From contig JAFWWU010000025.1 of the NCBI GenBank assembly GCA_017523285.1, positions 1 through 41,784 on the forward strand: a stretch of 41,784 nucleotides of DNA, written 5' to 3'. Both the position numbers and the translations under genes were made by a program. Below the pieces are notes generated by a model. That model searched no databases and had not been told where the DNA came from. It was given only the letters and a program-made list of their open reading frames with translations. Source of the stretch: Ruminococcus sp. (GTDB lineage: Bacteria > Bacillota > Clostridia > Oscillospirales > Ruminococcaceae). Below, one piece after another: positions 1-40,004 of this stretch; the stretch's first letter is position 1; each line of letters starts with the position of its first letter.

Positions 1-2
1 CT

Positions 3-902: not shown

Positions 903-910
903 TAAAAAAT

Positions 911-940
911 AATGGTATCGGAATTTCCGATACCATTTTT
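911..940. terminator. Bidirectional rho-independent terminator
   Basis: A perfect 12-bp stem (911-922 with 926-937, loop ATT) is flanked by T residues on the right and A residues on the left. It can end both the plus-strand membrane protein gene and the converging hom transcript. Confidence 0.85.
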
Positions 941-953
941 TATCTCTATTAAC

Positions 954-2147: not shown

Positions 2148-2169
2148 TATTATAATTCCTCCGTAAAAA

Positions 2170-2613: not shown

Positions 2614-2674
2614 AAAAAAACACCTGCTAAAAAATAGTAAACAGTCCGTCTGTGAAATACAGTTGTACATTAAG

Positions 2675-2703
2675 AGTATACCACTTTAGTAAGAATTTGT
2701 CAA
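2675..2703 (-). promoter_or_regulatory. Sigma-A type promoter of pheB-hom
   Basis: On the minus strand TTGACA (2698-2703) and TATACT (2675-2680) are separated by exactly 17 bp. The predicted transcription start is near 2668, about 55 bases before the pheB ATG. Confidence 0.85.
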
Positions 2704-2769
2704 TCGTACATATTCACAAACACATTGATTTTATTCTGAAAATACTATCTATTTTTTCAGCAACATGCA

Positions 2770-4194: not shown

Positions 4195-4216
4195 ATTCTC
4201 CTCCGATTTATCAGTA

Positions 4217-4252
4217 AAAATCCCCTTACGCAGTATAACGTAAAGGGATTTT
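4217..4252 (-). terminator. Terminator or attenuator between the EAL-HDOD gene and the GH16 gene
   Basis: A stem formed by AAAATCCC-CTTACG and CGTAAAGGGATTTT overlaps the stop codon of the upstream gene. It is followed on the minus strand by a T run and then, within about 20 bases, by the GH16 Shine-Dalgarno sequence. Confidence 0.75.
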
Positions 4253-5483: not shown

Positions 5484-5518
5484 TCAAATCCACCCCCTTG
5501 CGTTATTCTTTTTTATAT

Positions 5519-5547
5519 ATTATATCATACTTATTTAAAGAAATCAA
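5519..5547 (-). promoter_or_regulatory. Promoter of the EAL-HDOD gene
   Basis: TTGATT (5542-5547) and TATAAT (5519-5524) on the minus strand, 17-bp spacer. It lies in the 303-bp AT-rich intergenic region shared with the divergent gene; nothing else stands out between the two promoters. Confidence 0.7.
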
Positions 5548-5691
5548 CAATTTTTTTATATTTTTTGAATCTTAACCGCACTACAACGTATACAGTAAGT
5601 AATCATGATATATTTTTCTTCTCACAGTATTAGCACTTTTCACAAAAATCGATGAAAGTGGTAAAGAATTGCATTATATTAGTATAAACTC

Positions 5692-5720
5692 TTGAAATTT
5701 CATTTTTATTATGCTATAAT
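5692..5720 (+). promoter_or_regulatory. Promoter of the hydrogenase-like GGDEF-EAL gene
   Basis: TTGAAA (5692-5697) and TATAAT (5715-5720) with a 17-bp spacer. The predicted start is near 5727, about 60 bases before the TTG start codon. Confidence 0.75.
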
Positions 5721-5786
5721 ATGTGTAAGATGTAATTACTGAAAGTATACAACTGTTCAGTCATTTTGTTTCGTGAGGTGATTTAC

Positions 5787-8327: not shown

Positions 8328-8330
8328 ATC

Positions 8331-8368
8331 AAATGGGTAGGTTGCAGAGTGCAATCTGCCCATTTTTT
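8331..8368 (+). terminator. Terminator of the GGDEF-EAL gene
   Basis: A stem of AAATGGG-TAG-GTTGCA with TGCAAT-CTG-CCCATTT (three-base loop) is followed by a T run, directly after the stop codon. Confidence 0.85.
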
Positions 8369-8448
8369 AAAAATTCGTCATAGATACATAATCTCAATTT
8401 AACATCATGATGATATAATTGATACAGATGAAAGGATTGTGATTTGAT

Positions 8449-9804
8449 ATGAAAAGATTATTTTCTACAATTATAACAGCTTCTGTTTTGTCATGCAGTT
8501 TATTAAATCCCATTGCGTACGCCGCAGAAAATATATACACACCTGATTATAAAATTGCAGACAGGATTTCGATAAACAGCAACTCCGCAAAGCCTGTTGC
8601 AAATCCTGTTATAAGCCGTGGTGTTCCTGCATATTCCGCAAAGGGTGATGCAAAAAGCGGTAATGATGTTCATTATTTTTCATTCTGGAATTCTGCAACT
8701 CCTGATTATCTTGCATACGACCTTTCAGGAGTTCCTAAAGAACTGAAAAAACAGGTAATTGCAGTATGGTATAACACAAGTGCTTTTGACTCTATCGGCA
8801 ATTACGCAAACAGAAATATGGAACCCTCAGACTACACAATTGAAGTAAATGCAGCAGATGGCGGAGAATATCCCGAAAGCGGCTGGATTGTTGCGGAAAC
8901 AGTAACTGATAATACTTTAAGCTCACGTCAGCATGTTGTATCTATGGAAGGATATAACTGGATAAGAATCAACATAACAAAAGCAGACGGAGAAGAAGGC
9001 AGAAATGCAAGTATAAACTTCGATATACATAATGTTTCTGACGGAATTTTTGACAGCTGGCTTTTTCTTGGTGACTCAATAACAGCCTGTGGAATGAATA
9101 ACTGCTATGGAACAGGTTTTGCAACTCATGTAAACGAACTTGACAGCAAGTATTTTCCCATTCAGGAAAACGGCGGCATAGGCGGGATTACAAGTACTGA
9201 CGGCAAAAACAACATTGACCGCTGGCTCGAAACCTGCAATGCAAATTTCGTCAGCATAGCTTATGGAACAAACGATGCCTGGGGTAATCCGTCAGGAGTT
9301 GAAAAATACTATGAAAACACTAAATATATGATTGATGCTGTTCTTGAGGCAGGAAAAATCCCTGTTCTTCCAAAAATTCCATATGCTTCGGAAAAAGCAG
9401 TTCTTGAAAACCTCGGCAAATACAATGAAGTAGTCGAAAAACTCTGGCAGGAATATGATGGCAAAATCGTAAAAGGACCTGACCTGTATGAATTCCTTGA
9501 AAAGAATCCCGATTATCTCAGCGGTGACGGAGTTCACCCGTCTGATACAGGTTATGCGGCAATAAGAAAGCTATGGGCTGAAACTATGTATGAAAGAGTA
9601 TATACTGCTAAAATCAGCGAGGCTGTAATCGGAGATATAAACTCCGACGGAGTATTCGATATCTCTGACGCTGTTACACTTCAAAAATGGCTTCTCAGCG
9701 ATGATAATGCAAAAATCAACAACTGGCAGACAGGAGATTTATGCAAGGATAATCTGCTCGATATCGCAGATTTATCTGCAATGAAAAATGCGCTGATAAA
9801 ATAA
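8449..9804 (+). CDS. Secreted SGNH/GDSL esterase with C-terminal dockerin
   Basis: 451 residues with a signal peptide (cleavage near AYA-AEN, 26). An N-terminal beta-rich domain (about 28-200) precedes an SGNH hydrolase domain (about 203-385). The catalytic blocks are visible: GDSIT with Ser210, GTND with Asn275, and DGVHPSD with Asp360 and His363. A type I dockerin with two calcium repeats closes the protein (GDINSDGVFDISD from 395 and GDLCKDNLLDIAD). Such enzymes usually remove acetyl or similar esters from plant polysaccharides, and the dockerin would tether this one to a cohesin scaffold. The substrate is not readable from sequence. A good -10 box (TATAAT, 8414-8419) lies upstream with no convincing -35 element. 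Confidence 0.9.
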   Translation: MKRLFSTIITASVLSCSLLNPIAYAAENIYTPDYKIADRISINSNSAKPVANPVISRGVPAYSAKGDAKSGNDVHYFSFWNSATPDYLAYDLSGVPKELKKQVIAVWYNTSAFDSIGNYANRNMEPSDYTIEVNAADGGEYPESGWIVAETVTDNTLSSRQHVVSMEGYNWIRINITKADGEEGRNASINFDIHNVSDGIFDSWLFLGDSITACGMNNCYGTGFATHVNELDSKYFPIQENGGIGGITSTDGKNNIDRWLETCNANFVSIAYGTNDAWGNPSGVEKYYENTKYMIDAVLEAGKIPVLPKIPYASEKAVLENLGKYNEVVEKLWQEYDGKIVKGPDLYEFLEKNPDYLSGDGVHPSDTGYAAIRKLWAETMYERVYTAKISEAVIGDINSDGVFDISDAVTLQKWLLSDDNAKINNWQTGDLCKDNLLDIADLSAMKNALIK

Positions 9805-9843
9805 CAGTGTTATCTGACAGATAAAAATTAAATTCATCACCTA

Positions 9844-9872
9844 TTGACAAATATACTCAATGGGTGTATAAT
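9844..9872 (+). promoter_or_regulatory. Promoter of the metK leader
   Basis: Consensus TTGACA (9844-9849) and TATAAT (9867-9872) with a 17-bp spacer, just upstream of the SAM riboswitch. Confidence 0.9.
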
Positions 9873-9895
9873 ATAAAAGTAATATTTACAATATA

Positions 9896-9994
9896 CCTTA
9901 TCAAGAGTGGCGGAGGAACAGGTCCTGTGAAGCCCGGCAACCTGACTGTTTACAGACAAGGTGCTAAATCCTGCGGTTTATCCGAAAGATGAGG
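9896..9994 (+). ncRNA. SAM-I (S-box) riboswitch aptamer
   Basis: The S-box hallmarks are present: AAGAGTGGCGGAGG, then TGAAGCCCGGCAACC, then the 3' part with GTGCTAAATCC and CCGAAAGATGAGG. Helix P1 pairs CCTTATC (9896-9902) with GATGAGG (9988-9994). SAM binding should stabilise P1 and favour the downstream terminator. The segment around 9986-10000 can instead pair with 10004-10020 as an antiterminator. This gives feedback control of SAM synthesis. Confidence 0.96.
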
Positions 9995-19784: not shown

Positions 19785-20975
19785 TCAGTTGAAGCTCTCC
19801 CCTTTTATGATGTGTTCCCATAATGGTGACATATCTCTGAGGCGGTTTACTATATTTGGTACAACTTCAAGGATATAATCAATATCCTCATCTGTTGTTT
19901 CAGCACTTATTGAAAGTCTGAGTGAGCCATGTGCAACCTCGTGTTTAAGTCCGAGCGCAAGCAGAACGTGCGACGGATCAAGTGAGCCTGATGTACAAGC
20001 TGAGCCCGAAGAAGCACATATTCCGTTCATATCAAGCATAAGAAGCAAGGATTCACCCTCAACGCCCTCGATTGATATATTACAGTTGCCTGCAAGACGC
20101 TTTTCTCTGTCACCGTTAAGACGAGTGCGTGGAAGCTGTAAAATTCCGTCAATGAGTCGGTTTCTCATTGCAGTAACCTTTTCATTCTTGCTCTTTATAT
20201 CTGCTGTTGCAATTTCAATAGCTGTTCCAAGACCTACGATTGCAGGAACGTTTTCTGTACCTGCACGCTTGCTTCTTTCCTGTGCACCGCCGAAAATAAG
20301 ATTAGGAAGTGCAAGTCCCTTTCTTACATAGATAGCGCCGATGCCCTTCTGAGCGTGAATTTTATGTCCAGATAATGAAAGCAGGTCAATATTCTGTGCC
20401 TTAACGTCAATTTCAACGTTTCCGACAGCCTGAACAGCGTCTGTATGGAAGATAACTCCCTTCTCACGACAAACTGCACCTATTTCAGCGATAGGCTGAA
20501 TTGTACCGATTTCATTATTTGAATACATTATTGAAACGATTGCTGTATCTTCTCTGATTGCATTCTTAACATCATCAGGATTTACAAATCCAAGCGGACT
20601 TACAGGAAGATAAGTAACCTCATACCCCTCTTTTTCAAGAGCCTGACAAGTATGAAGAATAGCATGATGCTCAAATACAGAAGTAATAATGTGATTCTTG
20701 CCCTTAGCCTTAAGACGCTGACAAGTACCTCTTATCGCCCAGTTATCTGATTCTGAGCCACAGCTTGTAAAGTAGATTTCAGATGGCTCTGCGCCGATTG
20801 CCTTTGCCACCTTTTCTCTTGAAGCTTCAATTGCTTTTTTTGAGTTTCTTCCAAGTCCGTAAATACTTGAAGCATTGCCGTATTCCTCTGTGAAGTAAGG
20901 ATACATAGCATCAAGAACTTCTTTTGAAACCTTTGTTGTAGCCGCATTATCAGCATAAACAAATCTTTTTTCCAT
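19785..20975 (-). CDS. nifS: Cysteine desulfurase
   Basis: PLP enzyme that takes sulfur from cysteine for Fe-S cluster assembly. 396 residues. The PLP lysine is Lys205 in [11 protein letters not shown], the conserved His pair is in FEHHAIL (103-104), and the active-site Cys327 lies in the loop [10 protein letters not shown], typical of NifS/IscS proteins. The opening VYADNAATT is canonical. The start has GGAGG upstream. It lies 21 bp after rnhA and immediately before the EF-Tu-like gene and nifU. Confidence 0.97.
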
Positions 20976-25326: not shown

Positions 25327-25728
25327 ATGTACGAATCAAAGGTAAAATACTTTTACGGAACAGGCAGAAGAAAGCACTCCGTAGCAAGAGTTAGAATTTA
25401 TCCAGGTAGTGGTAACATCACTATCAACAACAGAAATATCGATGAGTATTTCGGTCTTGAAACTCTCAAGCTTATCGTTCGTCAGCCACTCGCTCTTACT
25501 GATAACCTTGACAAGTTCGACATCGTTTGCACAGTTGCAGGCGGCGGCGTTACAGGTCAGGCTGGCGCTATCAGACACGGCGTTTCAAGAGCTCTTCTTG
25601 AATATGATGCTGAGCTCCGTCCAGCTCTTAAGAAGGCTGGCTTCCTCACTCGTGACCCAAGAATGAAGGAAAGAAAGAAGTACGGTCTCAAGGCTGCTCG
25701 TCGCGCACCACAGTTCTCAAAGAGATAA
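25327..25728 (+). CDS. rpsI: 30S ribosomal protein S9
   Basis: 133 residues with the S9 features: [13 protein letters not shown] at the N-terminus, the [14 protein letters not shown] signature, and the basic C-terminal tail ending in SKR that reaches the tRNA site of the ribosome. An AAAGGAGG site precedes the ATG. It is the last core gene before the accessory region. Confidence 0.98.
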
Positions 25729-25753
25729 TTACATCCCTACTGGGACTTATACA

Positions 25754-25789
25754 AAATCCCCGATCCTACGCGGTTCGGGGATTTTTTTG
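25754..25789 (+). terminator. Terminator of rplM-rpsI
   Basis: AAATCCCCGA and TCGGGGATTT form a 10-bp stem followed by a T run. Confidence 0.9.
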
Positions 25790-26355: not shown

Positions 26356-26435
26356 TTAACAAGGAAATGCTGATTCTATCCACAGACAGATTTAAAAGTA
26401 TCATAATGCATCTTAACTTATAATCATTTGAGTAA

Positions 26436-29400
26436 TCATTTGAGTGTCAGTTTGCGCAATGCATATGGTTTGGCAAACTTAATATATGCATCGCTGACAT
26501 AGATAGTATCATCTTCAATTGGTGATTTTCTAATAGCAGGATATACGATAACCTTTTTTGAAGAATGGTTGTTACATATTTTGATTATATCATTTGTTAC
26601 GATTAGCTTATTATTTGCGGCTTCAAGTATACCAGAGAGCTGATTTATATACTTGGCTTGTTCTGAATGTGGAATGTCCTTTGGAAGTTCGCCATACTTT
26701 CCCCAGCGGAGCAATTCAAGGCCTGCAAATCGATCAAGTTGTCCATGAACAAAATGATTTCTATAATGTCTTAAACATTTATGACACGAACTATCACACC
26801 CACAATTATTAAGTATTTCTTCTGCTTTAACAAGCAGCATTTCAATCTCTTTAGCTACGCTTGCTGAATATCCAGCACCACTTGAAAGACTGTCATAAAG
26901 ATATACATCAAAAAATGCACCTTGTGAATTATTACGGAATCTAAAACCAGATACAAGTTCAGTGAATTCTATATCCAATTCTTGACTTGCAGCTAATCTA
27001 AGAGCTTCTGCTAATGATTGGGCTGCCCTATTGAGCCATATTCGGTTATCTAAATCAATATTGATTTGATTAGTATCCAAAGCTATTTCAAGCACCATCA
27101 TATCTGTTACAAAATCATATCCAAGGTTTACATGTTTGGCGTTAGGATGTTTACACTTTGGAAGATTTCGAAATGATTTATAGGGCCTTTTAAGGTCGTC
27201 AAGTACCTTTTTACTATCGCCGGGCATTGATGCACCGCAATCTTCGCAAACCATGAAACCAGAACCACTCGGTCCACTGTTTAACATAATTATTCTTTGA
27301 TTAGTTCTTGATGCAATCCTTATATTCTTACACCCACAAATCTCTTTAATATCGTCAGATTCGGGTAATGTTGAATACAGCGGAGGTTGAGTAAACGAGT
27401 ATTCTTCATCAAGTTGAGCATCATGAACCTTTTCAGCATCTTTAGGAGCAAATCCCCATGGTTTTAACATCTGTGTGGTTAAAGTGATTTCATTATTCCC
27501 ACAAAATGGACATGTTTTAACTGTTTCGTCTTCAAGACCAAACCATCCGCATTTATGGCATAATTGTACGCTCTTTAAGTAATTAGGATCATCAAGGAAA
27601 GCCTTTGCTGGTGACATAATATTCTTGCTGCCTGGAACAAAGAATCCCCCCAACTGATACGTTTTTTTATCAACTACTATTGCCCTTCCTGGTGCATATT
27701 CACTTATTGCAACATCAAGGCCTCGTTCAACCTGATATGCTATTTTATTATTGTTTCCAGTTATATAAGTGCTTACAACATTTTTAGGGAATGAGTATGT
27801 TGGTATTATTCCTTCCTCATATAGTGCGTCAAGAAGACTTTTTTCTTTCACAAGTTCAACAGAATCAATTGCACCATACAATTCAGGATGCGACTCAAAT
27901 TTTATTTTTAAACTCAACAATTCTTTTTTAAGGCTATTTTTTAAATCTCTTTCATTTATATACGCTTCTTCAGGAACAAGAATGCTGCTATTATCAACAA
28001 CATAATTATCAATAAAACGCAGGCTCATATCAAAGTACTTGTTCATATAATCGCAGACAGGTAAGCTATCTAAACTTGCTTGTATGCTCGTAGTAAACTC
28101 CTGCATTAAAACCATATTCAAATGCCTGAAAAGTATCTTCTTGCTATCAATATCGATCCATGGTTTTCTTGGATCTCCGCGAAACATAGGAACTGGATTA
28201 TTGAAGTAGATCGTATCATTTGGCCCGTCTTCACAAAATGTAATTATTGTTGATAAACTTGCTCCTCGACGTCCGGCACGTCCAGCTCTCTGTTGATAGT
28301 TCTCTCTCATAGGAGGAATATTTCTCAATCCTACTGCAACAAGTGAACCGATATCAATACCTACTTCCATTGTTGTAGTACTTGATAAAATATCAACTGG
28401 TGTTTCATTATCTTGAATCAAATCTTGAAAACGCAATTCATATTTTTCTGTTTTTGACCATAAATCATCTCTTTGATCTTTGTGAGACAACTGAGCAGTG
28501 TGTTCTTCGGTATCTATAACCCTAATTTTCGCACCGTTCATCGCATCATAAACTGGATTCCTCCAGAAATCCAGAGCTTTCAATTCCTCATCTGACATTT
28601 CATGAATCATATGGCTACCGCAACATGGACATACTCCTTTAAGTAAAAATGGTGTTAATTCTGAACATATCTCACATTTGAACCATTTATGTTCAAGATT
28701 AAATCGAGGCCGTACTCTTGAAAGGTCAATATAGTAACGATCCCTTGGTATAGCTAGATAATTCTCAGTAATAATTCGTCTCCATATTAACATCTCTGGT
28801 GTATTATCTTTCCAGCCCATTATTCTTTTAATGTTTTCTGAAAATTTCCATTCTTTGTCAAGACCGTATTTATCAAATTTTCTTCTTACATCTAGTCGAA
28901 TATCATCGGATATTATATGTCCTAAAGCTGTTGCAGAATCACATACATCTATTATCCACGCATTAAAGAAACTTATAAAATCATCTTCAGAAACATTAAT
29001 ACCATTTTCCTCAAAGCTGTCTATGGAATCATAAAGTGCTTTTTGTGTAGGTTCAATCCAACTAATACCAGAATCCATAAGAGTATTGTATCCTCCACAG
29101 AATAATCGAAGAAGATATTTCTGCATCTGAATCGGTGCATTTGTCTGATCAAACCTTGGATTGTATTTTTGATTTCTCTTAAGACATCTATTATAATTTT
29201 TTATTGTAGTTTTACATTGGTCAGCAAAGTTCTCACTATCATCGCCGTTAAATATGTGAACATTATTTATTCCAGCTTCAAGGCAGAAAAGATCATAAAG
29301 GCTATTTAAAGATATATTTTTAGAATTCTCCATTATTTCCGAATCCTCCATTTTATCAATTGCTAATGCAAACAATTGACGAGCAGCTTCAATATCAGAA

Positions 29401-31670
29401 ATATCCGACATATCCCTTGCGAGCTTAGCCGCCCTCTGGCGGCTATCAGAGAACAGAAGCACTTTTCGACCTTCATTAGGGATCCTATCTGGATCATTAT
29501 CTTTTCCTGCTACGGGAGCTTGAACCTGAAACTGTGCTTTTATAAGATTATAGAACGATTGATTACCGCGAGTACTGAATGATGTTAGCTGCATCTGAGA
29601 TAATAAATGATGACAATGAGGGCATGAAGGAAAAGTAATTATCTGCGGTCTGCCAGGAGCTTTAAAATCGCAATAAAACAGCTTGCGCATATTGGGATCA
29701 CCAGACTTGGAATCGTCTTTAAAGTATAAAAAACCGCTTTTAATATCAAGATAACAAATCTCTATAGGGTATTTTCCACGTTTCTGATATATAAAATCTT
29801 CAGGTGGGATATACAAATGTATTTCTTTTAGATTTTTATCAAGTAATTGACCAGAATAATGCCACAGATATGCAAAACCAGATGTTCCTATTTCATCATC
29901 AAGTATATATCCCTTATAAAAAAGCGATCCACATCGGCGGTCGTTATAAAGCTCATATACAACACTTCCGCATTCAGGACATATCATATGTCCATCATTC
30001 AAAAAGATCTCTCCTAAAGTTAGAGATTTATGTGAATGAGAATGAGTGCAAAGGGGATTTGCACAGGCATATACGCCTTTGATTCCACGAAACAGCATAT
30101 GCATACGTGCAGGGAACAAAACCATATTATTCTTTCTTGCTAATGGTGCGATAGCAAGCAGTACACTTACAGCATTAAGGGCTTCATCTCTATCCAAACT
30201 TGAGAAAATACTTTTAGAGAGTTCGTCCAAAGAAACAGCGTTTCCCCTGCAAAGTCGAATCAATTCGTAGAATGGACGATAGTGAATTATATTATCATAC
30301 ATCCAAATACAAGCTTCGTCGACAGATGCAAATTGTTTCGGAACTCCTTCAATTTCATGCCAGAAATTATTCAAAGCCTCTAAGCGAGCATCTTCTTTTT
30401 CTTCTATGTCTGAAATTGATGCATCACTAAACTTATGAACAGGGATATCATACTTCTGCATACCATCTATTTTTTCACGTTCTCCACGCAAAAAAACAAA
30501 TTCAGCATTATTATCGGAAGCTGTAAGCTCTCTTGCAAATGTCATAACAGCTTTTTTCTCATCATCAGTTCCATAAGGCATACTTGCTGTTGTGAGTATG
30601 AATTGCACTCTGTCTCTGCTTATTCCAAGTTTATGAAACATTCTTCTGATTAATAGCGCAACTTCTCCGCCAGAAGAACCACGATACATATGTGCTTCAT
30701 CAATAATGAATAAAAGTTTATTGTTCTTATCTTCGTTGAGCCAGTTTTTTGTTGAATCCCATATTTTTTTTTCGCGAGGTCGTAATAGCATATACTCAAG
30801 CATCGAGTAGTTTGTAATAAGAATATCTGGACAGATTTCCTGCATTTCAAAGCGCGTGATCAATTCTGCATCTTCAGGATTAGGAATATGTAAGCCTTTT
30901 TTTATTCCATTTAGATATGTTTCCATATCTGCTTTTGCAGGAATTTTTCCTTCTTTATTAAGATTATTAAGGTATTCCTTGTCGTTATCAGTTTTAGGGA
31001 ATGCCATTCGAGATAGAGTTTGTACAAGTTGTTTGTCTTCGGAAGCTTTCGGTTCAGTTCCAGGATATGGAGTACGACCAGTATACATACCAAACTGCGG
31101 TCTACGAACATCAGCTCCACATACATCACGAAATATGCTTATAAACTTATTATCCTTATCACCAATAAGCCTTCTTAATCGGCTTACCTGATCGGAAACA
31201 AGCGCATTCATTGGATACATGATAACGGTTCTAACACCGCGCGTTCCCCATGTGCCGGGAGAATTTTTTGCTTCATCTGCAAGCTTTGCCAATAAAGGCC
31301 ACATAAAACACTCTGTTTTACCAGAACCTGTTCCTGTTGAAACAAAAAGGTCTTTTCCATCAAATGCAGCTTTAAGTGCATCAATCTGATGAACAAAAGG
31401 AGATGAATAAACGCCTAATTCTGCCGCTGATAATTGTCCCATAAATTGTTTCAGCCAATCTGGAAGATCAGTTTTCTTTATTCCCTCTGGACAACTTTTA
31501 TAGGCAGGCGAAGATTCTATATAAGGTCGTTGATATAATAATGATTCATCATCAAGATGTGAGTTTATTGCTGACAATAGAATCGGAGATTTTCCGAAAT
31601 ACTGAGATTTGATATAGTTTTCAAGTTCTGATCTCAGCTGTTTATGAACTGAATTAGCACCATTCGACAT
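26436..31670 (-). CDS. Very large DEAH-box helicase with DUF1998-type C-terminus (DruE/DrmA class)
   Basis: 1744 residues. Helicase motifs are clear: Q-type segment SPFVHQIDAL (90-99), Walker A STGTGSGKTE (111-120), MYPMNALVSDQ (151-161), PDILITNYSMLE (281-292), DEAH (324-327), TTASMPYG, and motif VI QQRAGRAGRRG near 1125. Several Cys pairs suggest zinc sites (CANPLCTH, CPECG, CEICS, CPCCG, CHKCGW, CPFCG). The C-terminal CDSSCHKCLRHYRN (near 1627) is the DUF1998/Zn-binding signature. This class includes DruE of Druantia, DrmA of DISARM and MrfA-like helicases; the size fits DruE best. It is the last gene of a four-gene operon, two bases after its neighbour, with GAGGAAT as ribosome site. Probable role: nucleic-acid translocase of an anti-phage system (inference). 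Confidence 0.9.
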   Translation of the reverse strand: MSNGANSVHKQLRSELENYIKSQYFGKSPILLSAINSHLDDESLLYQRPYIESSPAYKSCPEGIKKTDLPDWLKQFMGQLSAAELGVYSSPFVHQIDALKAAFDGKDLFVSTGTGSGKTECFMWPLLAKLADEAKNSPGTWGTRGVRTVIMYPMNALVSDQVSRLRRLIGDKDNKFISIFRDVCGADVRRPQFGMYTGRTPYPGTEPKASEDKQLVQTLSRMAFPKTDNDKEYLNNLNKEGKIPAKADMETYLNGIKKGLHIPNPEDAELITRFEMQEICPDILITNYSMLEYMLLRPREKKIWDSTKNWLNEDKNNKLLFIIDEAHMYRGSSGGEVALLIRRMFHKLGISRDRVQFILTTASMPYGTDDEKKAVMTFARELTASDNNAEFVFLRGEREKIDGMQKYDIPVHKFSDASISDIEEKEDARLEALNNFWHEIEGVPKQFASVDEACIWMYDNIIHYRPFYELIRLCRGNAVSLDELSKSIFSSLDRDEALNAVSVLLAIAPLARKNNMVLFPARMHMLFRGIKGVYACANPLCTHSHSHKSLTLGEIFLNDGHMICPECGSVVYELYNDRRCGSLFYKGYILDDEIGTSGFAYLWHYSGQLLDKNLKEIHLYIPPEDFIYQKRGKYPIEICYLDIKSGFLYFKDDSKSGDPNMRKLFYCDFKAPGRPQIITFPSCPHCHHLLSQMQLTSFSTRGNQSFYNLIKAQFQVQAPVAGKDNDPDRIPNEGRKVLLFSDSRQRAAKLARDMSDISDIEAARQLFALAIDKMEDSEIMENSKNISLNSLYDLFCLEAGINNVHIFNGDDSENFADQCKTTIKNYNRCLKRNQKYNPRFDQTNAPIQMQKYLLRLFCGGYNTLMDSGISWIEPTQKALYDSIDSFEENGINVSEDDFISFFNAWIIDVCDSATALGHIISDDIRLDVRRKFDKYGLDKEWKFSENIKRIMGWKDNTPEMLIWRRIITENYLAIPRDRYYIDLSRVRPRFNLEHKWFKCEICSELTPFLLKGVCPCCGSHMIHEMSDEELKALDFWRNPVYDAMNGAKIRVIDTEEHTAQLSHKDQRDDLWSKTEKYELRFQDLIQDNETPVDILSSTTTMEVGIDIGSLVAVGLRNIPPMRENYQQRAGRAGRRGASLSTIITFCEDGPNDTIYFNNPVPMFRGDPRKPWIDIDSKKILFRHLNMVLMQEFTTSIQASLDSLPVCDYMNKYFDMSLRFIDNYVVDNSSILVPEEAYINERDLKNSLKKELLSLKIKFESHPELYGAIDSVELVKEKSLLDALYEEGIIPTYSFPKNVVSTYITGNNNKIAYQVERGLDVAISEYAPGRAIVVDKKTYQLGGFFVPGSKNIMSPAKAFLDDPNYLKSVQLCHKCGWFGLEDETVKTCPFCGNNEITLTTQMLKPWGFAPKDAEKVHDAQLDEEYSFTQPPLYSTLPESDDIKEICGCKNIRIASRTNQRIIMLNSGPSGSGFMVCEDCGASMPGDSKKVLDDLKRPYKSFRNLPKCKHPNAKHVNLGYDFVTDMMVLEIALDTNQINIDLDNRIWLNRAAQSLAEALRLAASQELDIEFTELVSGFRFRNNSQGAFFDVYLYDSLSSGAGYSASVAKEIEMLLVKAEEILNNCGCDSSCHKCLRHYRNHFVHGQLDRFAGLELLRWGKYGELPKDIPHSEQAKYINQLSGILEAANNKLIVTNDIIKICNNHSSKKVIVYPAIRKSPIEDDTIYVSDAYIKFAKPYALRKLTLK

Positions 31671-31672
31671 AA

Positions 31673-32680
31673 TTAATATTCCTCTTTAAAACTAAATCCG
31701 GTCTGATTTAATAATCCTATGATTGCTTTTAATACGTCCGTATCAATTACTCTTGAAAAATTGCTCTTAACATTTAAGAAGGTCTTTGGCCAGCTATACA
31801 GCATTATCATATTCTGCTCGGCTGGAGGAAGAAGATATCCGATTTGCAAATATGAAATGGCACCGTCGATTTGATATTTAATATCAGGCAACACTTCTTT
31901 CGAAGCTAAAAGTCCATTAGAAAGATATAAGTAATTCATATCCTCAGTTAACCAATACGGAATCTGACTCGCCTCAACTTCATTATTGTTATACTTATAA
32001 AAATAATAGATCCTTGTTCCTAGAGCAGAAGTCCTCATTAACGATATTCCTGTGTTAATATCAGGCTTCTCTATCCAATAACCATTCCCAAAAGAAGGCT
32101 TGGTTTTTAAAAATTCAAATCTATCATCTGATTTTAAAACAGTAAATTTTGCCTGTTCGGAGTAGTGTTTCCAATAATCAATAATCGAATGCGGTGTTAG
32201 GTTAAACATTTCGCTGACGGAAAGTATATTATTACCTGCTTTATTTTTCGCAAGCGTACCAATGCCACTGATTGACACTTTTTTCGATAAAGATGTTCCA
32301 AGAAGGAATTCTATTCCATTAATGAAAGCTTGTCTATTTGCAGATGGTGAAATCCTTTTGGGTGAATGATAGACATTTCCAGTAGCTAAAAATGTATTAT
32401 AGATATTATCACTGATTTCATCAAAATGATCAGGATACAAGCTTTCGACTTCAGGATACATTTTCAAGTAACTGTTTAAAGTTGTTTCAATTCGTCGCTT
32501 GAAATGCTCTATTGTTACGGGAACCTCTTCCTCAAGCTTATCCCATAACGAAGAATATCCTATCCTTGATACTGCACTATATATCAATCTTGATTTATAA
32601 TACTCCTCTGGCTCTGTATCACCTTTTCGAATATCCAAATCAGATGCAATACGTGATAAAAGGCAGTTATATTTATTCAT
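31673..32680 (-). CDS. Unknown protein, third gene of the helicase defence-like operon
   Basis: 335 residues, soluble, no signal peptide or membrane segment, no motif I recognise. The N-terminal 130 residues look helical, the middle contains a Ser/Gly-rich loop (KKVSISGIGTLAKNKAGNN), and the C-terminal half is mixed with many aromatics (RIYYFYKYNNNEV, YWLTEDMNYLYLSNG). Its start overlaps the end of the preceding gene by eight bases and its stop is two bases before the helicase start, so it is surely part of the same system. It could be an adaptor or a divergent nuclease; nothing in the sequence decides this. Confidence 0.85.
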   Translation of the reverse strand: MNKYNCLLSRIASDLDIRKGDTEPEEYYKSRLIYSAVSRIGYSSLWDKLEEEVPVTIEHFKRRIETTLNSYLKMYPEVESLYPDHFDEISDNIYNTFLATGNVYHSPKRISPSANRQAFINGIEFLLGTSLSKKVSISGIGTLAKNKAGNNILSVSEMFNLTPHSIIDYWKHYSEQAKFTVLKSDDRFEFLKTKPSFGNGYWIEKPDINTGISLMRTSALGTRIYYFYKYNNNEVEASQIPYWLTEDMNYLYLSNGLLASKEVLPDIKYQIDGAISYLQIGYLLPPAEQNMIMLYSWPKTFLNVKSNFSRVIDTDVLKAIIGLLNQTGFSFKEEY

Positions 32681-35360
32681 CGCATTCTCCTAAATAGTTC
32701 TCTACAAGTTTAATATACTCAGAGGGAGCTCTTGATAGTACGTTGTTCTGATTATGAATTGTTTCCAAAAGAAGTTCTTCTTTTCCAGTTATATAGGCAC
32801 AAGGAAGTAGAAGATAAACAAGATCAGTTCCTTCACTTATTTCATATAATGAAGCCGCCTGAGCAACGAGTGTGCTTATCTTTTTTACAGCCAATGATGA
32901 CATCTTCATTTTTGACAGTAGTTGACTGTAAATTCTATTGTTTACCTTTTTACCAATGGTAGGAATAAACCCTTCGGAAGGCATAGAACCAACAAATGCA
33001 TTTGTCGGCTCTGAATCAACAAATAATTCCGTAAAAATAGGAAGTACATAGTTCAGCAAGCCTTTAGGCTCGATTGATAGATCTTCTATAAATGGCATCA
33101 CAAGAATAAAAAACTTGTCTGGTATATTAATTAACTCCATAATTGAATATACCCACTCGCTGCTGAAAGGATTTTCAATGATAATTACTGTATCATCACT
33201 ATTCATAACCTCTGATAGCACGTTACTTTCGTATGAATGCGAACAGTTCAAAGTACCAGCAAGCCTTGCATTTAATGCGGCTGAAAAAGCATTTGCAATA
33301 CTTTTACCGCATGGTCCAGCTAACAATACAGGAGTATGTGTTAAATATGCTGAATACATATATGCTGCAAGACTATCTCTGAATTTGCTTGAAACGCCAG
33401 CATTCTGCAATTCTTCTGAAATAAGGTTTTGAAGATCATTGATATCATTATATTCTTCAATACCTTCTGAAACGAGCAAACTTCCAGAAGTATAACATGA
33501 TTTAGGGATGATAGAAGCCGTAGAATTAATAGGTGTTACAAATGCCATTTGACTTATAAATTCAGCCGCATTTTTCCTTGCATCGTCAATTTTATTTTTT
33601 ATTCGCTCTTCAACATCTGATGCAAGTTTTTCTTTATCGGCAATACTATCGGAAATAGCACTAAGCTCAGACGAGAGCCGATCACGTTCCTTTTTAACGT
33701 TTTCTAATTCATTCCTTTTATCAGAGACATCTTTTTCAACCGCCATTAATTTTTCACTTGCAACTTTAATTCTCTCTACGTTTTCAGTTTCCCAATCATG
33801 ATTGATCAGTTCTTTGCATTTTTCGATTAATTCTGGATGCTTAGGAATTATATTGGCAAGAATGTCATTTTCAACATTATCATTATTTATGTAAGTCTCC
33901 GCATTCTCAATAAGTGAGACAACATACTGTTTGGCTTCAGATTCCGAGCATTTGCACGAATAGCATATCTCTTTATACAATTCATCCTGTGGCAGTTCCG
34001 TAATATAATCTCTGTAAATCTTCCATGTATTCTTAGAAACACCTTTTTGTTTTATAGCATTCCATGATGCACGCCTGAGAACTATATCTGTTACTATCTT
34101 TATTGGATCATAAAGCTTGATTATTTTAGGTATACCTTTGATTTTTAGGTATCTGTAGAACATTTTTCCGTCCAGTTCAACTATATCATCAAATTCAATG
34201 GTATATTCATCAACATAATAGCAGTCTTCTTTGAGCTTTAATAAGCCATTGTCTATTTCGCAATTTTTATTTGAGCATAATACTCCTCGATATTGTCTGT
34301 TATTTATTTTAATAGCCAAAATAATCATACCTGTTGACGGGTTTACAGATACCCCATTCTTTAAACAATCTACTACTTCGCCACTATTAACACTTACTGA
34401 AAAATCAACAACTTCAATCGGAACATATTTTTCACAATATAAATCATGAGTGTAATCCTCATCAGGGCGCTTATAGTTCTCTTCAAAGTTCCATGCCCAT
34501 ATGCCAATATGTCCTATTCCATCTGGTCCAGTTGTACATCTCAAACGAGTATTATTTCCGAAAGCCGGGGGCTTATTTACGTCAACCTTGAATGGAATTA
34601 ATTCATTCTTTTCAACATCAGCAAGTCTACTCATCCAAAGTTTACCATTATACTCATAGATCTTACATAAAGAATGATATGTATATCCATCATCTATGTC
34701 TTCTTCCGGTATTTGTTCAGCTGCTTTTAACGTATTCAATTCTGATTGAAGAGAAAGAATAGAAGCGTTTGCTTCATCAAGCTGTTTACTTATATCAGCA
34801 ACTCTTTGATCAGTTTCCTTTTGAAGCTGTTTCATTATTTCATTGCTGGATTCAAGCAATGAATCTTTTTCTTCCAGCTGCTTTGTGAGCTTTTCAATCT
34901 GTTCTGATAAATCACTATCATCGTTTTCATATGAAAGTTCTTTTACCAGTTTAGGTGATTTTACAAGTAACGAAACTAGCTTTAAATAATCATCATCAAT
35001 CGTTTTCTCTTTCAATTTATAATATATAGATACATTATCTTTGAAAAGACTTTCAGCTAAAACTATAATAATAGCCTTATTCTTGTCTGTTATATCTTTT
35101 TCTTTTTTTGAAACGCTTTCATCTATTTGACTAACAATATCTTCGGTATTACTTTGTAAAAATCCATAGATAAAATCTTCCGAAAGATTATTATGAACAA
35201 GAAATCTTATCTGATCAGCTGATAATGACTTTGCTCTAAGAGGTGTTATCTTTTGAAGGCCACGAGGATTCTTCTGAAATTGCTTCCGGATGTTTTCAAT
35301 TCCAAGTGTATTAATCAAAAAATCGATTTCTTCTTTGTTTAATTTAATAATTGAAAGCAT
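32673..35360 (-). CDS. Coiled-coil protein with a degenerate P-loop ATPase-like C-terminus
   Basis: 895 residues. A helical N-terminus (1-140) leads to a coiled coil (about 150-215), a beta-rich middle domain (about 225-410), a helical segment, a second coiled coil (about 530-600) and a C-terminal domain. That domain contains LLAGPCGKSIANAFSAAL (679-696), a Walker A-like loop lacking one residue of the GxxxxGK[ST] spacing, and VIIIEN (725-730) where a Walker B would be. This resembles an AAA+/McrB-type fold that may have lost or altered ATP binding. The architecture, long coiled coils plus ATPase-like head, fits an assembly or sensor subunit. It lies one base after the previous gene and overlaps the next, between a Zn-finger protein and a helicase. 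Family not recognised. Confidence 0.85.
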   Translation of the reverse strand: MLSIIKLNKEEIDFLINTLGIENIRKQFQKNPRGLQKITPLRAKSLSADQIRFLVHNNLSEDFIYGFLQSNTEDIVSQIDESVSKKEKDITDKNKAIIIVLAESLFKDNVSIYYKLKEKTIDDDYLKLVSLLVKSPKLVKELSYENDDSDLSEQIEKLTKQLEEKDSLLESSNEIMKQLQKETDQRVADISKQLDEANASILSLQSELNTLKAAEQIPEEDIDDGYTYHSLCKIYEYNGKLWMSRLADVEKNELIPFKVDVNKPPAFGNNTRLRCTTGPDGIGHIGIWAWNFEENYKRPDEDYTHDLYCEKYVPIEVVDFSVSVNSGEVVDCLKNGVSVNPSTGMIILAIKINNRQYRGVLCSNKNCEIDNGLLKLKEDCYYVDEYTIEFDDIVELDGKMFYRYLKIKGIPKIIKLYDPIKIVTDIVLRRASWNAIKQKGVSKNTWKIYRDYITELPQDELYKEICYSCKCSESEAKQYVVSLIENAETYINNDNVENDILANIIPKHPELIEKCKELINHDWETENVERIKVASEKLMAVEKDVSDKRNELENVKKERDRLSSELSAISDSIADKEKLASDVEERIKNKIDDARKNAAEFISQMAFVTPINSTASIIPKSCYTSGSLLVSEGIEEYNDINDLQNLISEELQNAGVSSKFRDSLAAYMYSAYLTHTPVLLAGPCGKSIANAFSAALNARLAGTLNCSHSYESNVLSEVMNSDDTVIIIENPFSSEWVYSIMELINIPDKFFILVMPFIEDLSIEPKGLLNYVLPIFTELFVDSEPTNAFVGSMPSEGFIPTIGKKVNNRIYSQLLSKMKMSSLAVKKISTLVAQAASLYEISEGTDLVYLLLPCAYITGKEELLLETIHNQNNVLSRAPSEYIKLVENYLGECDE

Positions 35361-35361
35361 A

Positions 35362-36861
35362 TCATTTCCCCCTTATAAGCTTATATGCCTTTTCTGAAAT
35401 ATAACCATTTCTAATCTGTGAATATATCCATTTTTGTACAAGAGGATATCCATTATATTTCTTCGCTACAACTCCGAACAAATGTGAAATCGGAATCGTT
35501 TTACCACCTGTGCTTTGTAACCGCTGCAATAATTCTTCTTCATTATCAGAAACAGTTTTCTTCTGTCTCACATATGAAACCGTCCATACACATTCAAGAC
35601 CTTGAAATATATTTATAGTTATACCGAATTGAATCCGGTCTATTTCCGAAATAACATTTGCATTTATTCTACGTTTTTCAATTATCCAGCCATCTTTTAA
35701 TATTTCAATATAACCATCAAATTGAGGAGTAATTTGCAAGATTCCCTTCTCAGGTAGTCTATTATTTTCCCCAGCAATCACTTCAAAGCCTTTTATATCA
35801 GTTATTTTGACGATTGGAGGCTCAATATATGTATAAAGGTTATCTTTCCATAAGTATGTATAGCGCAGCACCTTTGTTCTTCCAGCAGATAATAATTGCT
35901 GGCGCGCATTACATTCCACAGTAACAGCTACCCCATTATCACTATCACAGTATTTACAGCAGAGGATATTTCCAATGGGATATATCTTCGGTATTATAGA
36001 ATCTCCTTGAATATATAGGTTAATCTTGTCAGCTTTGTGCTTAATTACATATGGAGAAAGAATGTATTCAGGCCACAAAAAAGTCAATGAAGCCTGCTTC
36101 TCAGTTAGCAAATAACCGTAATTGAAAAAGAAATCAGCATTGGATCTATTAAATACTTTTGCTCTAATCTTATAGATATACCAGCCGTTCATAATGCATA
36201 TTTGAGTACCTATAATATCTGATGGCACATAAATCTTTTTTGTTGTAAGAAAATAATAGTCATGATTTACTACAACATCCGCATCATCAGGTAATTTCTT
36301 CCTTGTATAATAATCAAACAACACACCGCTCTTTTTTATACCATCAACAATATGTGGCAAAGAAAGAGAACTTTCTGAAACACTTATAATGTATTTTTCA
36401 GCAGGAACAGATCCTAATTGTAAATATGTCAGGCTATCATAACTCAAGCGAGAAATATCATATTTGAATTCACTGGTTGAAAGATTATCGTTTTTAATTA
36501 TGATACTACCTCTGTTATTCTTGATATCAGGCGGAAGAAAGAAACCCATTTCTAATGAATATGACTGATTATTATGTATTTTTATTCTCATTGGCGGAAT
36601 AAAAGTATGTAATTCAAAATTTTGTACAGGAGAAGATAAAGCTCGATCATCGCATTCTTTATCTATATCGCCACGACTGTGCTTAAAACAGCGAGCATAG
36701 ATTCCTGGAGCAGTGAATGTAACATACTTTTTACAGAGTCTACACATAAAAATACCGCTATTTGCCGAGACTTTCTCATCTGGAAATATCCTAACCGCTT
36801 CATCTTTTGTTACACTTTTCCAGCCTTTGTCAGTCCACATCGCAACATTTGTTAGAGCCAT
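35362..36861 (-). CDS. Zn-finger, beta-rich protein opening the helicase operon
   Basis: 499 residues from the ATG at 36861, preceded by GGCGG; a longer frame to 36939 would include the promoter. The N-terminus has a zinc-ribbon-like set Cys40, Cys43, Cys58, His61 and Cys70 (FMCRLCKKYV...YARCFKH). Most of the rest (90-450) is beta-rich with repeated aromatic strands. A second Cys cluster (CCKYC) lies near 324. The C-terminal 60 residues are helical (FGVVAKKYNGYPLVQKW). No enzyme motif is seen. As first gene of the operon it may recognise DNA or scaffold the complex (inference). Confidence 0.85.
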   Translation of the reverse strand: MALTNVAMWTDKGWKSVTKDEAVRIFPDEKVSANSGIFMCRLCKKYVTFTAPGIYARCFKHSRGDIDKECDDRALSSPVQNFELHTFIPPMRIKIHNNQSYSLEMGFFLPPDIKNNRGSIIIKNDNLSTSEFKYDISRLSYDSLTYLQLGSVPAEKYIISVSESSLSLPHIVDGIKKSGVLFDYYTRKKLPDDADVVVNHDYYFLTTKKIYVPSDIIGTQICIMNGWYIYKIRAKVFNRSNADFFFNYGYLLTEKQASLTFLWPEYILSPYVIKHKADKINLYIQGDSIIPKIYPIGNILCCKYCDSDNGVAVTVECNARQQLLSAGRTKVLRYTYLWKDNLYTYIEPPIVKITDIKGFEVIAGENNRLPEKGILQITPQFDGYIEILKDGWIIEKRRINANVISEIDRIQFGITINIFQGLECVWTVSYVRQKKTVSDNEEELLQRLQSTGGKTIPISHLFGVVAKKYNGYPLVQKWIYSQIRNGYISEKAYKLIRGK

Positions 36862-36876
36862 TTCCCCACCGCCTTT

Positions 36877-36893
36877 GTTTATGAAATATAAAC
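36877..36893. repeat. Inverted repeat in the operon leader
   Basis: GTTTAT-GAAAT-ATAAAC, a perfect 6-bp inverted repeat between the predicted transcription start and the ribosome site. It may be an operator or an RNA hairpin. Confidence 0.45.
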
Positions 36894-36907
36894 AATTATC
36901 TTTAAAT

Positions 36908-36936
36908 ATTATACCACAATTATAGGCAAACGTCAA
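36908..36936 (-). promoter_or_regulatory. Promoter of the four-gene helicase operon
   Basis: TTGACG (36931-36936) and TATAAT (36908-36913) on the minus strand, 17-bp spacer, start near 36901. The stretch 36940-37170 upstream contains no convincing gene. Confidence 0.85.
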
Positions 36937-37174
36937 CACAAAATACTTCTGATTATTTCAAATAATTGCAAATGAATTATTAATGCGAAAATGCTATTTC
37001 CTGCAAGAAACATTGTGTTGTTTAGATTTCAATACGAATAAAACTATATATCGCTCTAAAATATTATCATTGAATATTATTACAAAAGCTCCTCAGACTA
37101 TCCTATCACCTAATCTGAAAACACCTACATTTCGCTATAACACTCTGAAAGAGCTTTCTACAATGGATATTAAG

Positions 37175-37297: not shown

Positions 37298-39847
37298 TCA
37301 GACTTTTTCAATACTGCATTGTCTTAAAGGAAGATTTGAATATAGGTTTACAGTGCATTTATTACTTACAAGCCTTGCTCGACCTACTGCTTGTTCGGAT
37401 TCGCTTTCTATCATCCATAACTGAATAGCCTGAAGGAGTTCATCCTTGAACGTCATAAAAGGAAAGTTGAACCCGTTTCTATTTACACGTCTTACCGCCA
37501 GAACATCTCCTGTGTTTGAATTGCCTGTTATCATCCCGAATAGCTTATACACATATTCAGGTCTGTGAAATGTACCGGCTACGGTAATGTTATGCCCTTG
37601 AAGATAATTGAATCCCTGTGAAGCTCCAAGATATATTTCTCCAGGTTCCGATAACGCCTTGAATGTGATTATGCTTTCATTATCATGTCTGTTTCGTATC
37701 TTCCTTATAAGCTCAGGCTTCGAGTTGAAGCACTCCCTGCTGTATGTCTCATCCGGATGAAGAATAAGTTCACCCATATACTTCAATAGCCCTAAATCAT
37801 TGAAGCTGTAAAGTCTTTTACTAAATATGCTCTCATACAATGCTTTATCCGCAGTTGCTGAAAGTATTGTACAACTGCACCCAGGAAGCTCCTTTTTGTA
37901 GAGGAAATATATTATATCATTTCCTTTTTCATGATAAAAACAGCGTGAATATATAGCATGATAAATACTTGAACTCCATGTTCTGCAATCAATACAGTTA
38001 TTAACTACAGCACGTTCACATTCATCTATATCAAACGTAAATTCGTCGAGCATTTCATACCCCTCAACTCCTGCAATTCTTTTCATTCTTGCCGCTACTA
38101 CAGGATTTATAGGCAGACGATATAAATTCTGGTTAAGCAGGGAATATATATCACCAACAGATACCTGATTAACCTGAAACATAGTTGTAAGTATATCCTC
38201 ATCTATAATTACATTTCGTGGTCTGAGATAATCCTCTTTCATATTTAAAAGCCTTGCATGTGTGGTAATAACAAGTTGTCCTTTAAAAGAGCGTATCTTA
38301 TCCATAGCTTTAAGATATTCTTTAGCATTTGGAGAATCACATTCCCTGAGCAATGCATTTATAGCCATATCATCACCAATCATATAATGGTGGCGTATTT
38401 TTTCTTCCGTTTCTTTATCAAGTGACATAAGAAGCTCATCTATAATTGGTGTGGTAATATAGTTGATTCCCATATCATCAGCTGTATCAGCAACAGAATA
38501 CATAAGCTTTGAGTTTGGAACAGCTACTATGGTCTGTTTATCTGATTTCATTACAGCTTGCAGATATGTATATGTTTTTCCTGCCCCCGTAGGCGCCTTT
38601 ATAACATTGATGCCATTGTTTTTTAGACACTTATCAAGAGTCACTCTTAAATTTTCTCTCATAGTATCAATTTCTATATATTCCGGATTATCGTCCAATG
38701 TAATTATCTCACTGCTAAAGCTTTTCAGCGTATGGCACATGGTTGATTTATGACAGCATGTATCAGCATATGAACAATAATTATCACAGCGCTGAGGTTT
38801 ACAGTTATTACGATTTGCCCAGCTTATCTGTTCCATTTTTCTTGTAATATCACCATATCTGTCAGAATACTTATCAAATGTTCTTGCAAGAAGTTCCTTA
38901 CCGCCTTTGATATGTATAAGATTAAGAGCAAGTCCGAACCATTCATCATGTGAAAGTCTCTCTCCTGATATATAATCACAGAATAAACGGCATATAGTGT
39001 TGTTATTCAAATTTACTCTTAACGGCTTATCCTTTTTCTCCGAATATATAATAGATTTGCCTGTACTAAATAGTAATTTTGAAGATTTTCGGACATTGTC
39101 CCTATTATTATATATGGTTATTGTCCGAATATCTTCATTTTTTAGTATTTCATCTTCAACTTCCACCATAGGTAGAGAAAAAGAAGGGGCACCGGTAGAG
39201 CATATATCGGAGTTTTCTATGATAGCAAATGTATTGTTCCTAAGAACAACCTTTGTTTTTTCTGCAATAGCTTTAAGCTTACGGCTTTTATTCTTATTAT
39301 CATACTCATCAAGATACTGTAGTGTACTCAACAAAAGTTCATATACAGTAAAATTGCTATTTTCGCTATATGTGACATTCCTGCCTGGAAAGTAAAGCTT
39401 ACTGAAATCCTTAGAAGTAGTATCTGCTTCAGGAAATATACTGCAAAGACATATCTGAATCAGTAATGCCATACTCTTATCGATTATAACCTGATTACAA
39501 GCAAATACAATTCTGAAACGAGAAAAGCTCTCTGAACTCATTGTTTCATAGCTCAGAGCTATAGGAAGCTGATACTTATCAGCTCTTTTTATTACCTCTG
39601 TATAAGTTATACCACCATCAAAATCAAGTGCAAAAAGCTGTATGGAAGCCAGATCATCCTGACGTTTAAGTTCACCATTGAATGTTGACGGGCACCATAC
39701 GTACTGTTCTTCTATATATTCAGCAAGCTGAGATAATGAAATATCATATCTGTGATTCGCTATAAGCTTACATATCTTCTTTGTATTAATCTCTGATTTG
39801 GCTATGCCTTTGATACTTTCAGGGTATATCGATACTTTAAAACGCAT
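37298..39847 (-). CDS. Primase-helicase fusion of a mobile element (AEP-type primase plus SF2-like helicase)
   Basis: 849 residues from the ATG at 39847, which has AAGGAGATG upstream; the longer frame to 39964 crosses a hairpin. The N-terminal domain (1-180) carries an archaeo-eukaryotic primase-like acidic pair in LFALDFDGG (Asp75, Asp77), then SFSRFRIVF and DFSKLYFPGR. A middle region (about 280-365) ends in a cysteine cluster (Cys344, 348, 354, 355, 361) that may bind zinc or Fe-S. The helicase part has Walker A APTGAGKT (408-415), motif II IDED (538-541), a TTHARLL segment and EQAVGRAR as motif VI near the end. It should prime and unwind element DNA. Translation may be controlled by the inverted repeat covering its start. 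Confidence 0.88.
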   Translation of the reverse strand: MRFKVSIYPESIKGIAKSEINTKKICKLIANHRYDISLSQLAEYIEEQYVWCPSTFNGELKRQDDLASIQLFALDFDGGITYTEVIKRADKYQLPIALSYETMSSESFSRFRIVFACNQVIIDKSMALLIQICLCSIFPEADTTSKDFSKLYFPGRNVTYSENSNFTVYELLLSTLQYLDEYDNKNKSRKLKAIAEKTKVVLRNNTFAIIENSDICSTGAPSFSLPMVEVEDEILKNEDIRTITIYNNRDNVRKSSKLLFSTGKSIIYSEKKDKPLRVNLNNNTICRLFCDYISGERLSHDEWFGLALNLIHIKGGKELLARTFDKYSDRYGDITRKMEQISWANRNNCKPQRCDNYCSYADTCCHKSTMCHTLKSFSSEIITLDDNPEYIEIDTMRENLRVTLDKCLKNNGINVIKAPTGAGKTYTYLQAVMKSDKQTIVAVPNSKLMYSVADTADDMGINYITTPIIDELLMSLDKETEEKIRHHYMIGDDMAINALLRECDSPNAKEYLKAMDKIRSFKGQLVITTHARLLNMKEDYLRPRNVIIDEDILTTMFQVNQVSVGDIYSLLNQNLYRLPINPVVAARMKRIAGVEGYEMLDEFTFDIDECERAVVNNCIDCRTWSSSIYHAIYSRCFYHEKGNDIIYFLYKKELPGCSCTILSATADKALYESIFSKRLYSFNDLGLLKYMGELILHPDETYSRECFNSKPELIRKIRNRHDNESIITFKALSEPGEIYLGASQGFNYLQGHNITVAGTFHRPEYVYKLFGMITGNSNTGDVLAVRRVNRNGFNFPFMTFKDELLQAIQLWMIESESEQAVGRARLVSNKCTVNLYSNLPLRQCSIEKV

Positions 39848-39894
39848 TATAACATCTCCTTTGACTTTATATTGCTTTATATAGATGTTATAAT
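39846..39894 (-). promoter_or_regulatory. Perfect 12-bp inverted repeat covering start codon and ribosome site of the primase-helicase gene
   Basis: ATTATAACATCT (39846-39857) and AGATGTTATAAT (39883-39894) are perfect inverted repeats 25 bases apart. In the mRNA the hairpin would bury the Shine-Dalgarno GGAGATG and the AUG. Alternatively it is a DNA operator. Confidence 0.7.
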
Positions 39895-39912
39895 TGTTTT
39901 CACTAAAATAGC

Positions 39913-40004
39913 GGACAGGCATAGCGCCTGTCCTGAACGCACTGTGCGAAGTCCATATAACCACAGTACAGCCGTAAGTTATACATCATAGTATAACCTA
40001 CGGC
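39913..40004. repeat. Cluster of inverted repeats upstream of the primase-helicase (origin-like)
   Basis: GGACAGGC/GCCTGTCC (39913-39933), CGCAC/GTGCG (39938-39948) and a long hairpin GCCGTAAGTTATAC/GTATAACCTACGGC with one mismatch (39971-40004). The position beside a replication gene suggests a replication or transfer origin (inference). Confidence 0.55.

Follow-up and report, generated by a model that had tools for sequence, protein, structure and literature searches.

The window, a 41,784-nucleotide stretch of DNA from Ruminococcus sp. (contig JAFWWU010000025.1), carries on its minus strand a four-gene operon, druB-druC-druD-druE under one promoter, which is probably a DruA-independent form of type I Druantia serving as an accessory anti-phage system. 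A sequence-only reading of this DNA had proposed an undescribed or divergent system; the operon is indeed divergent, but not unrelated to known systems: it represents a variant of type I Druantia that lacks DruA. The four packed genes of that reading, with gaps of 1, -8 and 2 bases, are all present in the ORF list (36939-35362, 35360-32673, 32680-31673 and 31670-26436, minus strand), and the same packed order recurs widely in relatives. With the first start codon corrected, the four genes extend from 26436 to 36861. The features discussed below are as follows.

26426..36984, minus strand: transferred unit of promoter and operon, from the nucleotide match to R. flavefaciens XPD3002
36908..36936, minus strand: promoter TTGACG-17-TATAAT with TG before the -10 box, from the promoter scan, with the same site in the XPD3002 copy (L036)
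35362..36861, minus strand: druB-like gene, 499 aa, with an N-terminal CxxC..FxH..C zinc-finger-like motif (PADLOC DruB1; hhalign)
32673..35360, minus strand: druC-like gene, 895 aa, with a variable N-terminal part, a coiled coil and a conserved C-terminal domain (residues ~613-895; hhalign)
31673..32680, minus strand: druD-like gene, 335 aa (PADLOC DruD1; hhalign)
26436..31670, minus strand: druE (DruE1), 1744-aa YprA-family DEAH helicase with an MrfA Zn-binding domain near the C-terminus (PADLOC, Pfam)
25714..25760, plus strand: 3' end of rpsI plus the bases behind it, resembling an attachment site, with second copies in same-genus genomes

The near-consensus promoter is confirmed as a site (11 of 12 consensus bases) and is also present in the copy of the operon from Ruminococcus flavefaciens XPD3002. 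Since the stretch holds 65 promoter-like sites against 52.5 expected (sd 8.2), two others of which also reach 11/12, such a site counts for little by itself; its place and its conservation in XPD3002 make it credible. At 36939 the GTG lies directly against the -35 box, and the XPD3002 relative starts at an ATG equivalent to 36861. The first gene therefore had its start codon moved in our annotation: it probably begins at the ATG at 36861 (MALTNV..., 499 aa) rather than at the GTG. All four genes are under purifying selection, with dN/dS values relative to XPD3002 of 0.12 (B), 0.28 (C), 0.29 (D) and 0.08 (E).

Identity of the four proteins

The helicase had been placed in the DruE class, and the PADLOC models agree: DruE1 matches it at full length (1748.5 bits, residues 2-1738 of 1744), followed by DruE2 at 616.6 bits. 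This match places the operon in Druantia irrespective of type, as DruE is described as the only part common to all Druantia types (PMC13192584). Pfam detects DEAD, Helicase_C and MZB domains, the Walker A motif reads TGTGSGKT, and both DEAH and motif VI are present in all 84 long DruE sequences. The window DruE is 33% identical to that of P. putida, and helicases 9tu7 and 9wae are among its 10 matches in a search of solved structures. Apart from matches of helicase type, family profile scans of the four proteins found no nuclease family at the settings used; an inactivated Vsr domain is reported for type I DruE (PMC12458937).

Taken as single sequences, the three partners match weakly. The first protein matches PADLOC DruB1 at 1.2e-5 over residues 166-259 only, the 895-aa protein matches DruC1 at 0.0025 among coiled-coil matches, and the 335-aa protein matches DruD1 at 3.7e-11 over residues 5-333. 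Family alignments were then built from relatives and compared by hhalign with the canonical E. coli and P. putida proteins, whose profiles rest on 2-3 sequences. They paired B with B at 97.8% (7e-13), C with C at 96.2% (2e-9) and D with D at 94.4% (9e-8), and the other 12 of 15 pairings all stayed at or below 0.6%. The DruA-D set had been read as absent; DruA is missing and has no match, but B, C and D are assigned to type I by this comparison. They stand in the order B-C-D-E, which is also the order of the annotated druA-E genes of E. coli FREC5 and of the annotated DruA with the next four genes on P. putida pKF715A. On pKF715A, B, C and D are annotated merely as hypothetical.

The CxxC..FxH..C motif of DruB is present in all 63 aligned sequences, the window included, and in both canonical DruB proteins; the PADLOC DruB models match at most 23 of these 63. 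A search of solved structures with DruB returned one weak zinc-ribbon chain (E 0.13), and DruD gave no match in the same search. The DruD1 model matches 72 of the 74 aligned DruD sequences. The best fits of DruD1 and DruB1 to the aligned sequences (1.5e-156 and 2.4e-206, respectively) are so strong that genes of this kind were probably in the PADLOC training sets.

DruC is recognisable by its C-terminal domain only. Residues 613-895 alone match canonical DruC at 94.5% (8e-8), and nothing canonical was matched by hhalign in the N-terminal two thirds (N-terminal and middle parts at most 1.3%, coil 0.8%). A coiled-coil artefact can be dismissed as the source of the DruC match, because the coil alone scores 0.8% and the part behind it 94.5%. 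The structural matches of DruC, among the best 60 of 78, are mainly of coiled-coil type. The description of this protein as P-loop-like was not upheld: GK[ST] occurs in just 2 of 67 aligned DruC sequences (the window and XPD3002), the usual loop being GPNxxxIA, and no ATPase family is found among the best 25 of 119 Pfam families for 58 members. The stricter pattern G-x4-GK[ST] is absent from all 67 DruC sequences but also from all 84 DruE sequences with a genuine Walker A, so it provides no test. To judge by its sequence, the conserved C-terminal domain of DruC is one without a Walker A motif.

Compared with type I Druantia of E. coli FREC5 and P. putida pKF715A, the operon shares the DruE1-class helicase, the DruB, DruC and DruD homologues, and the order and packing of the genes. 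It differs in the absence of DruA, in the distance of its DruE, in the limited extent of the DruC match and in the remote-homology level of DruB and DruD. DruA-bearing systems vary too, since in Nitrosococcus the 955-aa gene that separates DruA from DruD fits neither the B nor the C nor the D profile. Other known systems were compared through the PADLOC matches, which are all listed for the three partners and given as the best 25 of 31 for the helicase; among the matches listed for the four proteins, no DruF, DruG, DruM, DruH or DrmB model appears. Type III (DruH-DruE) likewise combines a YprA-family helicase core with subtype-specific partners, but the window lacks DruH, and its best DruE3 score is 510 bits versus 1748 for DruE1. 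Type II, type IV CoCoNuT and PADLOC Druantia type IV share a DruE-class helicase and a coiled-coil partner, but DruM, DruF, DruG and DruL are not among the matches listed. Types II, III and IV were rejected for this lack of partner models, and with them the idea that the first two genes correspond to DruF and DruG. The verdict against DISARM stands: the operon shares a YprA-family helicase with DISARM and ARMADA, but its four proteins include no DrmB and no DNA methylase match, there is one helicase gene only, and the similarity is limited to the DrmA-type helicase (best 36 bits). No title naming a DruA-less type I form was found among the literature matches listed, a search that did not cover the founding 2018 paper, and an earlier mention is possible.

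Conservation, absence of DruA and mobility

A scan of GTDB genomes gave 537 DruE relatives, of which the best 80 were kept, so that the sample is biased to the kin of the window. The conserved four-gene neighbourhood that the sequence-only reading had suggested looking for was found: the complete set of four could be placed in 66 of these 80 loci, the rest being mostly cut by contig ends or split. Median gaps are -4 (B-C), -2.5 (C-D) and -1 bases (D-E), and gaps fall within -60 to +40 bases in 60/66, 70/72 and 71/75 cases, respectively. The four proteins have concordant distance matrices (r 0.80-0.95, n=62, 0 of 999 permutations), a result that shared descent alone can produce. Hosts are mostly Clostridia, and many loci are metagenome bins. 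Further hosts include Selenomonadaceae, Bacilli, Erysipelotrichaceae, Thermoguttaceae, Anaerobiospirillum, Ruminobacter, Parasutterella, Mailhella and the archaeon Methanogenium. A Prevotella bin (L064) hardly differs from one of the Clostridium sequences in the tree and may be misbinned.

In a FastTree phylogeny of 88 DruE sequences, the 83 rows without DruA form one clade (support 100) apart from the five DruA-bearing rows, among which a long-branch warning applies. A quick IQ-TREE analysis without mixture models, covering 45 rows, again groups the 37 rows without DruA in one clade (100), separate from eight DruA-bearing rows, with one change of state; because the root is unknown, loss and gain of DruA are not separable. 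The DruA-less state is not a local accident, being common to a large clade with many hosts. Canonical type I itself is thinly sampled, since DruD1 was found in just 1 of 321 genomes of another class, and that one is DruA-less. The P. putida DruD and DruC, used as queries for plasmid kin of canonical type I, retrieved their own record only, and DruD was not found in phage records.

Type I Druantia as described includes DruA (PMC7251935). The DruA family, PF14236, has no match in the four proteins or in the genome of the window (97.5% complete; the built-in controls of this search were silent), and the P. putida plasmid, the positive control in a companion search, was detected at 5.8e-82. Two phmmer queries with canonical DruA matched in 0 of 87 loci, and DruA was seen in none of the 80 closest GTDB loci. 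Searches of other genomes with DruE relatives detected PF14236 in 1 of 48 and 1 of 32 further cases, that is, in 2 of 80; two genomes were probably counted twice (L060 = G352, L061 = G085), and L077, L104, L028, L035, L048, L063 and L086 were left out. Both matches (L102 1243-3516; L110 1-838) are short DUF4338 proteins similar to each other (2e-54), one adjoining an IS66-like transposase and the other at a contig end; canonical DruA queries hit one at best at 3e-5 and the other not at all. Among viral contigs, B-C-D-E without DruA is found in the two loci closest to the window (41%), and DruA accompanies 4 of 16 viral loci (27-32%) when canonical and haloarchaeal DruA are used as queries. The viral contig L155 (8922-12432) carries a DruD-like gene and a DruE 32% identical to that of the window, and DruA, B and C were not recognised within 9 kb upstream. 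This locus indicates that DruA can be absent outside the clade as well, and the split may not be absolute; it counts against the DruA-independent reading, and the L110 locus counts for it.

The operon is accessory and mobile, as had been claimed. The nucleotide match to XPD3002 covers 26426-36984 in two pieces, with a gap inside druC, and none was found in the flanks compared; because the match ends there on both sides, promoter and operon moved together in one transfer. DruD was detected in 4 of 125 genomes of the genus, counting that of the window (the other three copies are 84, 35 and 22% identical), and in 7 of 394 genomes of the window's own order, so that the cassette is not a core feature of its relatives. 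The cassette follows rpsI. In 5 of 40 genomes of the genus (G794, G795, G798, G811 and G824), the contig carries the rpsI 3' end a second time, at a distance of kilobases. An integrase-like gene, identified by eye, directly follows rpsI in G824 (L145), and none lies between the two copies in G795. The window's own genome has a single copy. We consider it likely that an integration hotspot lies beside the cassette at rpsI.

Proposed function and alternative explanations

The four genes most likely act against phages. In the papers cited here, a mechanism is described for type III Druantia and none for type I; in the type III system, DruH probably does the sensing, and the effector is DruE, a helicase-nuclease that acts on DNA in which single strands are exposed (PMC13192584). 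For the operon in the window, we infer that DruB (zinc finger), DruC (coiled coil and C-terminal domain) and DruD would form a sensing or regulatory part, possibly in a complex. They may license the loading of DruE on DNA that is specific to infection, for example replication intermediates containing single strands. DruE would then translocate on or unwind phage DNA, and phage replication would fail. Cutting may be left to host nucleases, and in the sister branch described below an endonuclease would help.

Given that DruA belongs to type I as first described, the operon could be a degraded system that lost DruA, no longer works and is kept just by recent transfer, and the DNA right after the operon end holds two small ORFs of unknown kind only. 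A decaying system would hardly be expected to keep all four genes open at dN/dS 0.08-0.29, to preserve both helicase motifs throughout the long DruE sequences or to share its DruA-less state with a large clade in many hosts, and we regard degradation as very unlikely. Dependence on a DruA encoded in trans is so improbable as to be nearly negligible: it might find encouragement in the DUF4338 proteins of two genome searches, but these are short proteins of transposon type that canonical DruA queries hardly reach, and no such protein was found in the window's own genome or in 78 of 80 others.

A different possibility is that the DruA-less cassette is not antiviral at all and targets plasmids or other incoming DNA, or serves DNA repair like the MrfA/YprA helicases. 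The helicase is, after all, a member of the YprA family with an MZB domain (PMC12458937). The accessory spread of the cassette in the genus, its travel as a unit, the restriction-modification genes that precede it in related loci and the DruE1 assignment all point to defence, and this alternative is accordingly unlikely. If the DruA-independent reading holds, a natural four-gene form points to the likely core parts of type I and offers a smaller system to reconstitute. Searches built on a five-gene model would rate such operons as incomplete or overlook some of their genes, as the limited reach of the DruB models illustrates.

The front slot and neighbouring genes

The sister branch of the tree comprises 24 rows, of which 20 loci with a whole druB and at least 1 kb before it could be judged. 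A C5 cytosine methylase precedes DruB in 11 of the 20 (L062, L065, L069, L070, L071, L073, L075, L077, L078, L079 and L081), and the remaining nine have no such gene; methylase fragments in L063 and L099 were left out of the count. Endonucleases are of Eco47II type in six loci (L062, L069, L071, L075, L078 and L082, the last cut by a contig end) and of EcoO109I type in four (L073, L077, L079 and L081), the families having been checked by Pfam scans of example loci. Both endonuclease types recognise sites with a GGNCC core. Among viral contigs, L151 (methylase) and L152 (methylase, endonuclease and, by eye, downstream integrase-like genes) repeat the sister pattern. The C5 methylase and type II endonuclease stand directly before druB-C-D-E in L062, L069, L071, L073, L075, L077, L078, L079, L081 and L152. 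In the 50-row clade of the window, queries with two methylases and two endonucleases found neither gene before DruB in any of 33 judged loci.

The methylase/endonuclease form suggests that the front gene supplies target choice. We give roughly even chances to a reading in which B-C-D-E forms a Druantia core that is sufficient by itself and the front slot is an exchangeable specificity module, filled by DruA, by a C5 methylase usually with a type II endonuclease, or by nothing, as in the window's lineage. DruA would then lie outside the core machine, and type I would split into at least three subtypes differing in how self and foreign DNA are recognised. The idea that loci of the window's branch share a fifth conserved gene was rejected, as none of the flank families keeps a constant place or strand, in a comparison limited by contig ends.

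The surroundings do not fit the typical defence island described earlier. Genes to the left of the operon (scan excluding 1-9960) serve mainly metabolism and housekeeping: SAM synthetase, GH5, GH53, NifS/NifU, RNase H, L13 and S9. One of them, at 19785-20975 (minus strand), strongly matches the DndA/SspA models; it is a class-V aminotransferase-type (NifS-like) gene near a NifU-like gene and probably has a housekeeping rather than a defence role. Upstream of the operon, at 37298-39964 (minus strand), an 888-aa ORF has weak DEAD and phage-replication similarity (phrog_4913, 2.8e-6) and perhaps comes from a mobile element. In the XPD3002 copy, a hairpin with a T run was seen by eye after druE (L036 15232-15300); homology with the window stops 10 bases after the druE stop codon, and this hairpin is absent there. 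Near the cassette in two other loci (L008 5612-9137; L011 309-3947), a helicase-like gene of 1047-1084 aa lies beside a small NUDIX-like gene, both noted by eye, and a relative of the large gene is also present in L029.
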